Shown one piece after another: positions 1,979 to 5,571 of a stretch of DNA of 44,467 nt. The first letter of the stretch is position 1, and the number at the start of each line of letters is the position of its first letter. A program made the translations under genes and the position numbers. Where the stretch lies: positions 1 to 44,467 of IMG/VR virus record IMGVR_UViG_3300046557_000223; one strand, written 5' to 3'. The notes under the pieces were generated by a model. That model saw only the letters and a list, made by a program, of their open reading frames with translations, had not been told where the DNA came from and did not search any database. This DNA is from a virus.

Positions 1979-4345
1979 ATGTCCGAACTCCGCGACTACC
2001 AGCAGCAGGCAATCGCCGAAGTCCGCGCGCATATCAAGCGTGGCGTTCGGCGTGTGCTGGTGCAGGCACCGACGGGTTCGGGCAAGACGATCCTCACGTC
2101 GCATATGCTCGGCAGCATCGGCCGCGCCAAGCAAACCGGTTGGTTCATCGTTCACCGGCAGGAATTGCTAACGCAATCGTCGATCAAGTTCCGCGACGAA
2201 GAGATACCGCACGGCCTGGTGATGGCTGGTTACTCAATGCAGCCGGACAACCATATTCAAATTTGCAGCATCGGCACGCTTGTTCGCCGATACAAAAATC
2301 TGCGCAAACCGAAGTACATCGTTTGGGATGAGTGTTTCCCCGCGGAAACGCTTGTTGACGGCAAGCCTATAAACATGCTAGAAGTTGGCGACATGGTGCG
2401 CTCATTCAACCATGCAACAAATGCGGTTGAACTAAAGCGCATCATGCATAAGTTCAAAACGAAACCTCGCTCGATGTGCACGGTTCACATCGCCGATCGT
2501 TCGATCTTGTGCACAGAATCGCATCCGTTCTTCGTAATAGGCAGGGGTTATGTCGAAGCAAAAAGTATACAAGCTGGCGATCTCGTCATCGCCTTGCAAA
2601 ATATGCGCTACGCCTGTGGAGATAAACACCAAGTATCGCCACGACCGCTTAGCAAATCCGGGCTGGGTATTTTGCGGGAAAGAATGCTCGGGGAAATATC
2701 GCGCGATGATATCGGCGGTCACCATGGCGAACACGAATCGCAAGTATGCATCGGATCGAATGCGCTTGCGAAATCCGATGCATCTGGCGGAGAACAGGGA
2801 GAAAATGCGCGCATCACTTCTTCGCATAGGTCATCGACCAAAGACGCGCGGAGGGAATGGGAAAGGCATGACAGTACCGCAGCGATTGCTGTTGGAGAGT
2901 TTGCAGGATCGCGAGTTCTTGGCGGAATACATCTACCCGACAGGAACTCGCGGCTGCGGGATTCCGACGCATTACAAGATCGATATAGCGAATCCGAATA
3001 TTTGTCTTGCAATCGAGATAGACGGGTTCTCTCATACGGCTCTTTCTCGACAAGCCCAGGACAAAAAGAAAACGGAATTTATGGAATCGCGCGCGTGGAC
3101 TCTGTTGCGTTTCACGAACAGACAAGTGATGGAACATTTGCAGGACGTGCTGGCGACGGTTTCGTCTACAATATCGAAGTTGAAGATAACAACAACTATT
3201 TCGTAGAAGGTATACTTGTCCACAATTGTCACCACATCCGCGCGAACTCCTGGCAATCGGTGTTCGCTGCGTTCCCCGACGCCGTACACATCGGCCTCAG
3301 CGCCACGCCGTGCCGTCTGGACGGCCGAGGGCTTGCCGATTGTTTCGATGTCATGGTGCGCGGACCGTCTACTGCGCAGCTGATCGCCGAAGGCTACCTG
3401 TCACCCTATCGCCTATGGGCGCCGCCGCTCGATACGTCGGCACTCCACACACGCATGGGCGATTTTATACAAAGTGAAGTTGTGGAGAAAATGAACACGC
3501 CGAAAATCATCGGCGATGCCGTGGATCACTACGAGAGGATTTGCAAAGATGCTAGAACAATCATTTTCTGTGCGAGTATCGATCATTCCGAGCGGACCGC
3601 TGCCGAGTTCCGAAGCAGAGGATTTCGAGCGGCGCATGTCGACGGAGAAACTTCGCGAGATGCTCGCGAACGTTCTATGCGTGAATTTGAACTCGGAAAA
3701 ATCAAGATTCTTACAAACGTCGATTTATTCGGCGAGGGCATCGACGTCGCTGGAATTGAGTGCGTCATTCTCCTACGTCCCACGCAATCCCTCGGACTCT
3801 ATCTCCAGCAAGTCGGACGAGCCCTCAGACCAGTCTACGGAGACTCAGGTTGGGGAAGCCTTCTTGCGGGGCCTGCAGACCGGCGCCGCGCTATCGCCGG
3901 CGGAACGAAACCGTGTGCTTTCATCCTCGACCACGCCGGCAACAGCGAGCGACACGGATACCCCGACGACGATCGCGAGTGGTCATTGGAAGGTCGTCCC
4001 GCGCGCCAGCAATCCGAGAAAAACGAAACGATCCGCATCTGCGGCGCATGCTACTTCGCGAACCCAGCTACCAGTCGGGCATGTGGAGAGTGCGGCACCC
4101 CGTTCCCCGTCCAGTCGCGCGAAGTCGCGGAAGTCGAAGGGACGCTCGCGGAAGTAACTCCAGAGGAACGCGCGCGGGCGGCCGAACGAACAGCTGCCCG
4201 CATGGCTCAGGGGCGCGCGAAGACGTTCGAGGAACTGGCGGCGTTCGGGCGCGGTAAGGGCATGAAGAAGCCCGAGCGCTGGGCCATGCATATTCTGCGG
4301 GCGCGCGGGGCGTCGTTGAAGGGGATTGATCCGAGGTATTTATGA
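1979..4345 (+). CDS. SF2 DEAD/DEAH-type DNA helicase interrupted by an intein
   Basis: The precursor has 788 residues; removing the intein (residues 119-416) leaves a 490-residue helicase. N-terminal RecA-like domain: Q-motif-like start, Walker A APTGSGKT at 30-37, and Walker B/motif II split as DE|CHH by the intein. Motif III is LSATP at 440-444, motif VI QQVGRALRP at 610-618, and a C-terminal four-Cys zinc ribbon lies at about 688-709. The family unwinds or remodels DNA using ATP; here it probably serves phage replication or recombination. The intein splits the catalytic motif, so the enzyme should be inactive until splicing. Within the intein, the sequence between about residues 204 and 395 reads as out-of-frame translation of a nested endonuclease gene. 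The next gene overlaps by ATGA. Confidence 0.9.
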   Translation: MSELRDYQQQAIAEVRAHIKRGVRRVLVQAPTGSGKTILTSHMLGSIGRAKQTGWFIVHRQELLTQSSIKFRDEEIPHGLVMAGYSMQPDNHIQICSIGTLVRRYKNLRKPKYIVWDECFPAETLVDGKPINMLEVGDMVRSFNHATNAVELKRIMHKFKTKPRSMCTVHIADRSILCTESHPFFVIGRGYVEAKSIQAGDLVIALQNMRYACGDKHQVSPRPLSKSGLGILRERMLGEISRDDIGGHHGEHESQVCIGSNALAKSDASGGEQGENARITSSHRSSTKDARREWERHDSTAAIAVGEFAGSRVLGGIHLPDRNSRLRDSDALQDRYSESEYLSCNRDRRVLSYGSFSTSPGQKENGIYGIARVDSVAFHEQTSDGTFAGRAGDGFVYNIEVEDNNNYFVEGILVHNCHHIRANSWQSVFAAFPDAVHIGLSATPCRLDGRGLADCFDVMVRGPSTAQLIAEGYLSPYRLWAPPLDTSALHTRMGDFIQSEVVEKMNTPKIIGDAVDHYERICKDARTIIFCASIDHSERTAAEFRSRGFRAAHVDGETSRDARERSMREFELGKIKILTNVDLFGEGIDVAGIECVILLRPTQSLGLYLQQVGRALRPVYGDSGWGSLLAGPADRRRAIAGGTKPCAFILDHAGNSERHGYPDDDREWSLEGRPARQQSEKNETIRICGACYFANPATSRACGECGTPFPVQSREVAEVEGTLAEVTPEERARAAERTAARMAQGRAKTFEELAAFGRGKGMKKPERWAMHILRARGASLKGIDPRYL
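2333..3226 (+). mobile_element. Intein (298 residues) in helicase motif II
   Basis: Splicing blocks are clear. Cys1 at 119 begins CFPAETLVDGKPINMLEVGD (block A). CTESHPFFV is block B with its Thr and His, and GYVEAKSIQAGDLV completes the N-terminal Hint half. The C-terminal half has block F (VYNIEVEDNNNYFVEG) and ends LVHN, followed by extein Cys417 (block G, HN|C). All residues needed for standard Cys1/Asn/Cys+1 splicing are present. GC content is visibly lower than in the surrounding phage DNA, indicating acquisition. Between about 2590 and 3165 the intein frame carries no recognisable endonuclease domain but an Arg/Ser/Gly-rich filler. The endonuclease lies there in the +1 frame instead. 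Confidence 0.93.
2550..3206 (+). CDS. Vsr/DUF559-like homing endonuclease nested out of frame in the intein
   Basis: The 218-residue product is read +1 relative to the helicase/intein. The N-terminal zinc finger has CxxC at 16/19 and CxxxC at 42/46. A basic linker follows, then a PD-(D/E)XK-fold nuclease domain of the DUF559/Vsr type: KIDIA with Asp145, LAIEIDGFSH with Glu156, Asp158 and His162, then RAWTLLRFTNRQV (about 181-193). It would cleave intein-less helicase alleles and drive homing. The ATG at 2550 is preceded by TAGGCAGGGG (AGG at spacing 8, or AGGGG very close). The first ~13 residues overlap intein coding sequence, as do the last ~13 (stop at 3206, inside block F). Internal initiation is the likely expression route. 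The family is known from 'fractured genes' with split inteins and from phage introns; this arrangement differs. Confidence 0.85.
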   Translation: MSKQKVYKLAISSSPCKICATPVEINTKYRHDRLANPGWVFCGKECSGKYRAMISAVTMANTNRKYASDRMRLRNPMHLAENREKMRASLLRIGHRPKTRGGNGKGMTVPQRLLLESLQDREFLAEYIYPTGTRGCGIPTHYKIDIANPNICLAIEIDGFSHTALSRQAQDKKKTEFMESRAWTLLRFTNRQVMEHLQDVLATVSSTISKLKITTTIS

Positions 4346-4797
4346 TATTTGTCGTCAATGGAAAAATGGTCGAAGTTGGATACGTCGACGACGATCTCCG
4401 CAGCTACGCTAAGTCTGTTCTGGATGGATGCGCCAACCACGACAGCAGAATTAGCGGTTTCGACATGACCGGACGCAGGTCGCATTCCAATGCGGCAATT
4501 CCAATATATGGCAGGCCAAGAGTGGACAGCGTGGCCCATGAAGCGTGCATAGCGCGCGCATCGGCGCCTGCGGAACTGAAAGTAGCGTTTACGAGATGGC
4601 AAAATTTTTGGATATTCATTGCGCGATTGTTCGTGCGGGCTGAACGAAAAACGTCAATCGTTAGAGCGCATATGGCTTCGCGCGTCACCGCGCGCGCTGG
4701 CTGGTCAGGTCGCCGGTCGGCGCCGCCAATATCAGCAATGCAGAATGCCAAACGCTGGCAGCGATCCGGCATCACTTACGTCAACTGTAAACCTTGA
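4342..4797 (+). CDS. Hypothetical protein after the helicase
   Basis: The 151-residue reading frame begins in an ATGA overlap with the helicase stop, which supports the start. The first third is acidic (VGYVDDDLRSYAKSVL). The rest is strongly basic with several Trp and Arg residues, suggestive of nucleic-acid binding. Composition is lower in GC than the following genes. An open frame from 4619 to 4873 overlaps the 3' part, so a frame change near 4620-4700 cannot be excluded. No family recognised. Confidence 0.5.
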   Translation: MIFVVNGKMVEVGYVDDDLRSYAKSVLDGCANHDSRISGFDMTGRRSHSNAAIPIYGRPRVDSVAHEACIARASAPAELKVAFTRWQNFWIFIARLFVRAERKTSIVRAHMASRVTARAGWSGRRSAPPISAMQNAKRWQRSGITYVNCKP

Positions 4798-4873
4798 CAG
4801 GTCGCCGACTTCGCCGGCAGCCTCTACAATCCGCTTGACGGGCCCGGCAGTCGGGGTGTATGAGGGGGAGTGA

Positions 4874-5206
4874 ATGGAGCGGGACTGGAACCGAAGTAAT
4901 AGCGTGTGGAATGTAATATTGGCCGGCACGATTGGATCGCCGCCAATGCTGGCCTTCCTTCTCCTGATCGTCGCTTTCGTAATGGGACTCACCGTCGACG
5001 CGGTTTACGGCATCCGCGACGAGTTGCGACAGAACGAGATTCGCCGGACCGAAGAGATGAAGACGCTGCGAATGGAACTGCGATTACTCAGCAACGATTC
5101 GCGCGATCTGCAGTCGGTCATGATCTCTCACGGATACGCCAAACCGACCGATTTCAGCTATCCTGCCGGCATCGATTCCCCGGCGCAGAAAGGTAAGCAA
5201 CCATGA
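4874..5206 (+). CDS. Membrane-anchored coiled-coil protein
   Basis: This 110-residue protein has a GGGGGAG ribosome site just before ATG 4874. One hydrophobic segment at about residues 26-46 (MLAFLLLIVAFVMGL) is followed by a charged heptad-like stretch (about 48-80) and a Pro-rich tail. It is probably an inner-membrane protein with a coiled-coil arm. It heads the run of membrane and lysis genes and overlaps the next gene by ATGA. Function unknown. Confidence 0.65.
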   Translation: MERDWNRSNSVWNVILAGTIGSPPMLAFLLLIVAFVMGLTVDAVYGIRDELRQNEIRRTEEMKTLRMELRLLSNDSRDLQSVMISHGYAKPTDFSYPAGIDSPAQKGKQP

Positions 5207-5571
5207 GCGGAACTGCATGCTCGATCATCATCAACGGCAACAAGTCGCAGGCGAACGCGATGTCACTCGCGACCGAGCAGATTCTTGCGGCCGCATCTTC
5301 GGCTCAGAAAGCGTCGGCTAATACACTGTTGACCGGATTCGTCGTGCAAGGCGAAACGTTGCTCGGTATCCGGGTCAGGCCGACGCGAGATGAGTACAAT
5401 CCCGATGTGGTAATCACCATCAATGCGAATCTTGTCGTCGGCCTCGCTCGCACAATCTGCGCGATCGGATATGACAATTTCACGCCGGCCCAGCAACAGC
5501 ACGCGACCGACTTCATGGCTGCGTTCAACGGCACGACCGACACGCTACTCGCGGAAATCACCGCGTCGTGA
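5203..5571 (+). CDS. Hypothetical protein in the pre-lysis cluster
   Basis: This 122-residue soluble protein is rich in Ala, Thr and Ile. It starts in an ATGA overlap and ends in a GTGA overlap, so it is tightly coupled to membrane proteins on both sides. The middle (GETLLGIRVRPTRDEYNPDVVITI) looks like a small beta domain and the ends are helical. No motif or family recognised. Confidence 0.6.
   Translation: MSGTACSIIINGNKSQANAMSLATEQILAAASSAQKASANTLLTGFVVQGETLLGIRVRPTRDEYNPDVVITINANLVVGLARTICAIGYDNFTPAQQQHATDFMAAFNGTTDTLLAEITAS

Follow-up and report, generated by a model that had tools for sequence, protein, structure and literature searches.

Classical full-length inteins normally carry their homing nuclease as an in-frame domain, which is part of the excised intein, and splice in cis. 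In fractured genes, the host gene is broken into two open reading frames (ORFs), and the intein splices in trans; such genes, with split inteins and Vsr-like homing endonucleases, were reportedly described by Dassa et al. in 2009. Here we analysed the 44,467-nt virus record IMGVR_UViG_3300046557_000223 (hereafter, the window), in which a single locus encodes an SF2 helicase precursor interrupted by an intein, and a complete gene for an EDxHD/Vsr-like (DUF559) nuclease lies wholly inside the intein in the +1 frame. Like the classical inteins, this element has a homing nuclease inserted into a HINT splicing domain, but the nuclease is encoded in another frame and lies outside the intein protein. 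It shares with the fractured genes a Vsr-like/EDxHD nuclease as a separate ORF between the intein halves; however, the helicase is one ORF, whose contiguous intein overlaps the nuclease.

The ShiLan domain and Pacc40 gp60 are insertions into phage DNA methylases that encode out-of-frame HNH nucleases (Arsenault, Gosselin & Gogarten, 2025; PMC11855218). As at the present locus, a homing-type nuclease is nested out of frame, the host frame is open through the insert, and internal initiation has been proposed. ShiLan differs in having an HNH nuclease in the third frame and no intein splicing domain, and its insert is thought to be retained in the host protein (PMC11855218). The family to which the window belongs combines an EDxHD/Vsr-like nuclease in the +1 frame with a complete class 1 intein, at essentially one SF2 helicase site. 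The window thus has the out-of-frame nuclease and the open host frame of a ShiLan-type insert, but a DUF559 nuclease and a full HINT domain in place of an HNH nuclease without a splicing domain. I-Bth0305I (PDB 3r3p) is the EDxHD homing endonuclease of a group I intron (family in PMC3943268). It resembles the window nuclease in its fold and in having a core tethered to DNA-binding modules, but its carrier is an RNA intron rather than an intein, and no overlap with a second protein frame is implied. In the full-text literature, we found no intein with an out-of-frame nuclease, though a 2025 preprint on non-canonical actinobacteriophage inteins (10.1101/2025.01.02.630785), which lay outside that coverage, may describe it.

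A helicase intein with a nuclease gene in its +1 frame

The helicase precursor and its intein have the following parts (slashes mark the intein junctions; order is that predicted by AlphaFold, with its confidence measure, the predicted local distance difference test, pLDDT).

1979..4345, + strand: SF2 helicase precursor, one open frame of 788 aa
1979-2332 and 3227-4345, + strand: exteins of the precursor, in the helicase frame
2333..3226, + strand: class 1 intein of 298 codons, interrupting helicase motif II (DE/C...HN/CHH)
2333..2602, + strand: N-terminal HINT part, intein residues 1-90, ordered (pLDDT >90; HINT fold matches)
2603..3079, + strand: linker, intein residues 91-249, an open but disordered shadow of the nuclease (pLDDT mostly <50; only stops avoided)
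3080..3226, + strand: C-terminal HINT part, intein residues 250-298, ordered (pLDDT >90)

The helicase ORF matched ResIII and Helicase_C (Pfam) and the DNA helicase family phrog_16 (E 3.5e-96), and the intein matched Intein_splicing (Pfam, E 3e-10) and intein_Cterm (NCBIfam, E 8e-7). All intein blocks are in the helicase frame, namely Cys1 (residue 119), TESH as block B, block F and HN/C, and C1, T61, H64 and N298 were invariant in an alignment of 59 inteins. The window intein is of class 1, with Cys at position 1, TxxH in block B, HN followed by Cys, and the HINT fold; its Foldseek matches were HINT domains, that is, mini-inteins, BIL and Hedgehog. In the AlphaFold model, residues 1-90 and about 250-298 were ordered, and the 159-residue linker between them was disordered. 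A self-splicing RNA intron was rejected, as no Rfam family reached the gathering threshold within the window.

The second frame of the same DNA contains the following features.

2539..2549, + strand: possible weak ribosome-binding site before ATG 2550 (AGG at 2539, spacing 8; AGGGG at 2543, spacing 2)
2550..3206, + strand: EDxHD/Vsr-like (DUF559) nuclease gene, 218 aa, wholly inside the intein in the +1 frame
2550..2602, + strand: 5' dual-coding overlap, nuclease start over the ordered N-terminal HINT part (AlphaFold order in both products)
2595..2687, + strand: zinc-finger part of the nuclease, CxxC...CxxxC (C16, C19, C42, C46; residue conservation)
2964..3134, + strand: putative catalytic core with D145, E156, D158, H162 and D171 (conservation; I-Bth0305I and NGO0050 folds)
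3080..3206, + strand: 3' dual-coding overlap of about 41 codons, nuclease core and tail over the ordered C-terminal HINT part (AlphaFold; fossil in mini-inteins)

The third position of each nuclease codon is the first position of a helicase codon. The nuclease frame is closed upstream by a TAG at 2538-2540, three codons before ATG 2550. DUF559 was assigned to the nuclease by Pfam (E 9e-10), and its AlphaFold model had a mean pLDDT of 91. The nearest folds in Foldseek were NGO0050 (3hrl), then I-Bth0305I (3r3p, ranks 2 and 3, with a probability of 1.00 but an E-value of 5e-3), and later Vsr (1cw0, rank 6); E-values were modest (2e-3 to 6e-2) because only the nuclease core matched. D145, E156, D158, H162 and D171, which are typical of this nuclease core, were invariant in 66 nucleases and are candidate catalytic residues by conservation. 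C16, C19 and C42 of the zinc finger were nearly invariant in the same 66, and C46 was invariant in the first seven. In the window, about 15 codons at the start of the nuclease and 41 at the end lie over ordered HINT (medians of 2 and 42.5 in 74 loci), and on these models folded protein is encoded in both frames across the 3' overlap. An earlier note, made from the letters of the window alone, had described a two-frame intein here, and the contiguous 788-aa helicase frame with all its intein blocks, together with a nuclease wholly inside it in the +1 frame, bears this description out.

Occurrence of the arrangement in viruses and bacteria

In tblastn searches, 40 phage records (Vibrio, Pseudomonas MR14 and Corynebacterium phi673) carried the nuclease at 38-44% identity. 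In all eight phage records examined, the nuclease was +1 within a contiguous helicase-intein ORF, and the helicase alone was annotated. Scanning viral and genome contigs with an alignment as the query yielded 160 further loci, whereas a single-protein query found no match in the viral contigs. No DNA match was found in E. coli genomes. Among the 115 loci with a strong nuclease match, the N block was in the same phase in 110 of the 110 cases in which it was found, as was the C block (110/110). Host-frame stops were absent in 112 of these 115 loci, while the third frame averaged 14 stops; openness was not a selection criterion, because the loci were chosen by nuclease similarity. The intein-frame nuclease of full-length inteins was found at none of the loci, the nuclease phase being +1 in all. 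In L035 (3995-4603), the nuclease frame is broken near its N-terminus and the intein frame is open, possibly reflecting a decaying nuclease.

A second search, independent of the nuclease, used a tight N-intein alignment as the query, the full intein alignment being too diverse. It returned 80 loci, of which 76 had a contiguous intein with +1 nuclease sequence, two were mini-inteins without a nuclease (L193 and L234), and two ran off the contig; an in-frame nuclease was sought in these 80 loci, and none was found. Five of the 76 (L171, L180, L231, L238 and L247) were shortened inteins with a partial +1 nuclease. These always retained the C-terminal tail of the nuclease, a fossil that persists because the C-terminal HINT strand is encoded by the same DNA. 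Both searches pooled, at least 138 distinct loci carried the full arrangement. A Vibrio phage helicase (L252) contained two inteins, one LAGLIDADG-looking at Walker A and the other a nuclease-less mini-intein at DE/C.

Homologues of the nuclease also occurred in two other contexts. L036 (3355-3999) and L081 (about 3977-4588) are free-standing nuclease genes directly upstream of an intein-free SF2 helicase. The intein-free helicase of L081 seems to be frameshifted exactly at the motif II intein site, as a contig error or a repair scar. In L106 (3211-5490), on a contig of a Lacinutrix metagenome-assembled genome, the helicase is split in two, with the same nuclease between split-intein halves: the N-half spans 3211-3783, the nuclease starts in or near the end of the N-half and stops at 4444, and the C-half spans 4324-5490. 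L106 is the fractured form with this nuclease. The earlier note had linked the locus to fractured genes and placed it between these and classical inteins; L106 supports the link, and the contiguous form may be either an intermediate or the parent of the fractured one.

Selection on both reading frames

A host-frame stop is possible only as T/AA, T/AG or T/GA across two nuclease codons. Clustering at 70% identity left 87 dereplicated loci, phage and bacterial, many of them A+T-rich. These contained 0 host-frame stops versus 595 expected from shuffles of their own codons, while their third frame contained 1018 stops versus 953 expected. In the corresponding frame of the free-standing controls, 28 stops were present in L036 (27 expected) and 31 in L081 (29 expected), and the fractured control L106 had 23 (25 expected).

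Among NNT/NNC codons, the share of NNT was 0 of 508 before AA, AG or GA and 52% in safe contexts, whereas in the exteins it was 43% and 42% in the same two contexts. As T-ending codons were avoided solely in stop-making contexts, selection concerns the stops alone and leaves the linker otherwise free; selection on linker composition was not seen and is rejected. Together with a pLDDT mostly below 50, this agrees with the junk linker proposed in the earlier note.

The phase of substitutions was examined by aligning close relatives, in 24 non-independent pairs drawn from five clusters; the alignments had no gaps. At helicase codon positions 1, 2 and 3, the rates were 0.07, 0.05 and 0.19 in the N-intein and 0.03, 0.02 and 0.32 in the C-intein. 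In the linker they were 0.22, 0.09 and 0.06, the third position of the nuclease being the highest, and where ordered protein overlaps ordered protein all rates were low (0.07, 0.04 and 0.09). The phase thus switches exactly over the nuclease. Selection on both frames, as the earlier note had claimed, is supported by the missing stops, the normal third frame and this switch.

Every +1 host-frame stop is removable synonymously, by T to C at the third position of the nuclease, so keeping both frames open costs almost nothing. The remaining sense phase has unavoidable stops (mean 2.2 per nuclease, with at least one in 81 of 90 nucleases), because Met precedes a residue with A-starting codons only. 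Common ancestry alone could also explain the constant +1 phase.

Empty sites and probable mobility

The intein was at motif II (DE/C) in nearly all loci, across diverse SF2 helicases, and comparison of related genomes revealed sporadic presence and clean empty sites. The putative intein in the helicase of Corynebacterium phage phi673, absent from the sister phage phi674, was noted in the 2018 genome paper (PMC6132909). It is a member of the overprinted family, and the second-frame nuclease is reported neither in the part of that paper available to us nor in the record annotation. A clean 906-nt intein insert distinguishes phi673 from phi674; the 120 nt to its left are 100% identical between the two phages, identity to its right is 94%, and at the +1 residue phi674 has Val where phi673 has Cys. 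The Vibrio phages L250, L251 and L254 are empty, with DEA/HH, and their occupied relatives have DE/intein/CHH. Ala or Val follows DE in the empty L250, L251, L254 and L261, and Cys in the occupied L001, L004 and L006. Judged from these alignments, the splicing nucleophile seems to arrive together with the intein. Nuclease and HINT distances remained correlated after extein distance was removed (r 0.41). Homing would be the natural reading of the empty and occupied sites.

Proposed mechanism and alternative explanations

Considering these results, we propose the following scenario, an overprinted homing intein whose nuclease is made by internal initiation, which is very likely the best explanation of the locus. 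One mRNA would be read twice. Translation from the helicase start would give the precursor, in which the HINT halves may fold together and splice out along with the disordered linker, leaving an intact helicase. From ATG 2550, internal initiation would give a free nuclease with a zinc finger and an EDxHD/Vsr-like core. Helicase genes that lack the intein may be cut by this nuclease at their motif II codons (DExHH), and the intein would then move during repair templated by an intein-bearing copy. Because the nested gene has its own stop codon, it cannot share the frame of the intein, and the intein frame must stay open because the helicase would otherwise be lost.

Several points weigh against this scenario. 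Splicing, separate translation, the cleavage site and homing are deduced from sequence. The window has a weak Shine-Dalgarno (SD) sequence, and in 41 of 78 relatives no candidate ATG has a 4-nt SD. Extein and nuclease distances also correlate (r 0.45), so the spread may be partly vertical. Finally, the constant phase does not represent 110 independent choices, because it partly reflects one common origin.

In the most serious alternative, itself improbable, programmed ribosomal frameshifting makes the nuclease as an extension of the N-intein, in one protein. The invariable +1 phase and the lack of a good SD in about half of the relatives are compatible with this. However, SD matches of at least 4 bases were present at 30 of 78 first nuclease ATGs versus 5.9% of other-frame ATGs in the same regions (p 3e-17), a six-fold enrichment. 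In most annotated phages, GAGG ends 6-9 nt upstream of the nuclease ATG, and in the Vibrio phages and Pseudomonas phage MR14 it sits in the codons of the conserved intein (D)EVL. In 66 of 78 loci, the first ATG follows a nuclease-frame stop by no more than 20 codons, which leaves only a short stretch for a shift; in the window this stop is at 2538-2540. The homologues in L036 and L081 exist as separate genes. The SD enrichment and the upstream stops support the free nuclease anticipated by the earlier note, and internal initiation is likely to be its source.

Slightly less probable still is a nuclease that is a dead relic held open by the intein frame, or that serves the phage, for instance by exclusion of rival phages, rather than intein mobility. 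The nuclease is commonly lost, as mini-inteins with remnants of it show, and some phage homing nucleases are known to serve competition. The nuclease is not dead, however, because its first and second codon positions are conserved in the linker and the five putative catalytic residues are invariant. Homing and a role serving the phage are compatible and not exclusive.

Chance openness of the intein frame, in G+C-rich coding DNA with long shadow ORFs, now has a negligible probability. From the window alone it was moderately excluded, with P ranging from 0.00005 to 0.012 by null, so that the locus by itself was suggestive. Of the 218 nuclease codons, 41 have T as the last base and 48 begin with AA, AG or GA, and the forbidden junction occurs 0 times. 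Synonymous shuffling of the ORF's own codons gave 7.5 expected stops (P(0) = 5e-5) over the whole ORF and 4.9 (P(0) = 0.001) over the 161 codons outside the intein blocks; with phage codon usage as the null, P(0) was 0.0036 and 0.012, respectively. A hand count in the earlier note was nearly right, with junctions at 0, but its estimate of 1 in 10,000 holds only under the whole-ORF own-codon null and not under the others. In addition, a 213-aa shadow ORF at 3516-4157 in the C-extein of the helicase, without sign of function, looks like a product of chance, and openness at a single locus is untrustworthy because such an ORF occurs in the same gene. The relatives refute chance, given their missing host-frame stops, the many A+T-rich loci among them, a third frame full of stops and the absence of NNT in risk contexts.

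Sequencing or assembly indels splitting one in-frame intein-nuclease ORF are the least credible alternative of all: most loci are metagenome contigs and one unpaired indel would give a similar look, but two exact compensating shifts would be needed per locus, no in-frame form occurred in the 80 intein-first loci, and the same phase in the isolate genomes of Vibrio phages, Pseudomonas phage MR14 and Corynebacterium phage phi673 refutes such indels.

Elsewhere in the window, a small helix-turn-helix protein with a weak YdaS match is encoded at 164-373, just upstream of replication genes.

Origin and significance

The locus probably represents a so far undescribed class of mobile intein, widespread in viruses and bacteria at one SF2 helicase site, with a complete nuclease gene overprinted in the +1 frame and about 40 3' codons encoding two folded proteins, a core strand and the tail of the nuclease in one frame and the C-terminal HINT strand in the other; the class would have arisen by out-of-frame entry of a free-standing nuclease and given rise to fossil-tailed mini-inteins and fractured genes. 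The free-standing nucleases of L036 and L081 are a possible source of the overprinted form. Relative to known inteins, the new variant would work as a homing intein, its nuclease being a separate, overprinted gene.

Such nucleases are missed by annotation, since all eight annotated phage records examined list the helicase alone. The pair phi673 and phi674, on one laboratory host, makes homing directly testable. For the questions of how nucleases enter inteins and how genes fracture, the free nuclease beside an intein-free helicase, the overprinted intein, the fossil-tailed mini-intein and the split gene are all available as states, with one nuclease family throughout. Few natural cases of sense-strand overprinting are as clear, and its rule is measurable: only stop-making wobble bases are avoided. 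The nuclease and the splicing enzyme are thus different proteins but genetically inseparable, being two frames of the same DNA.

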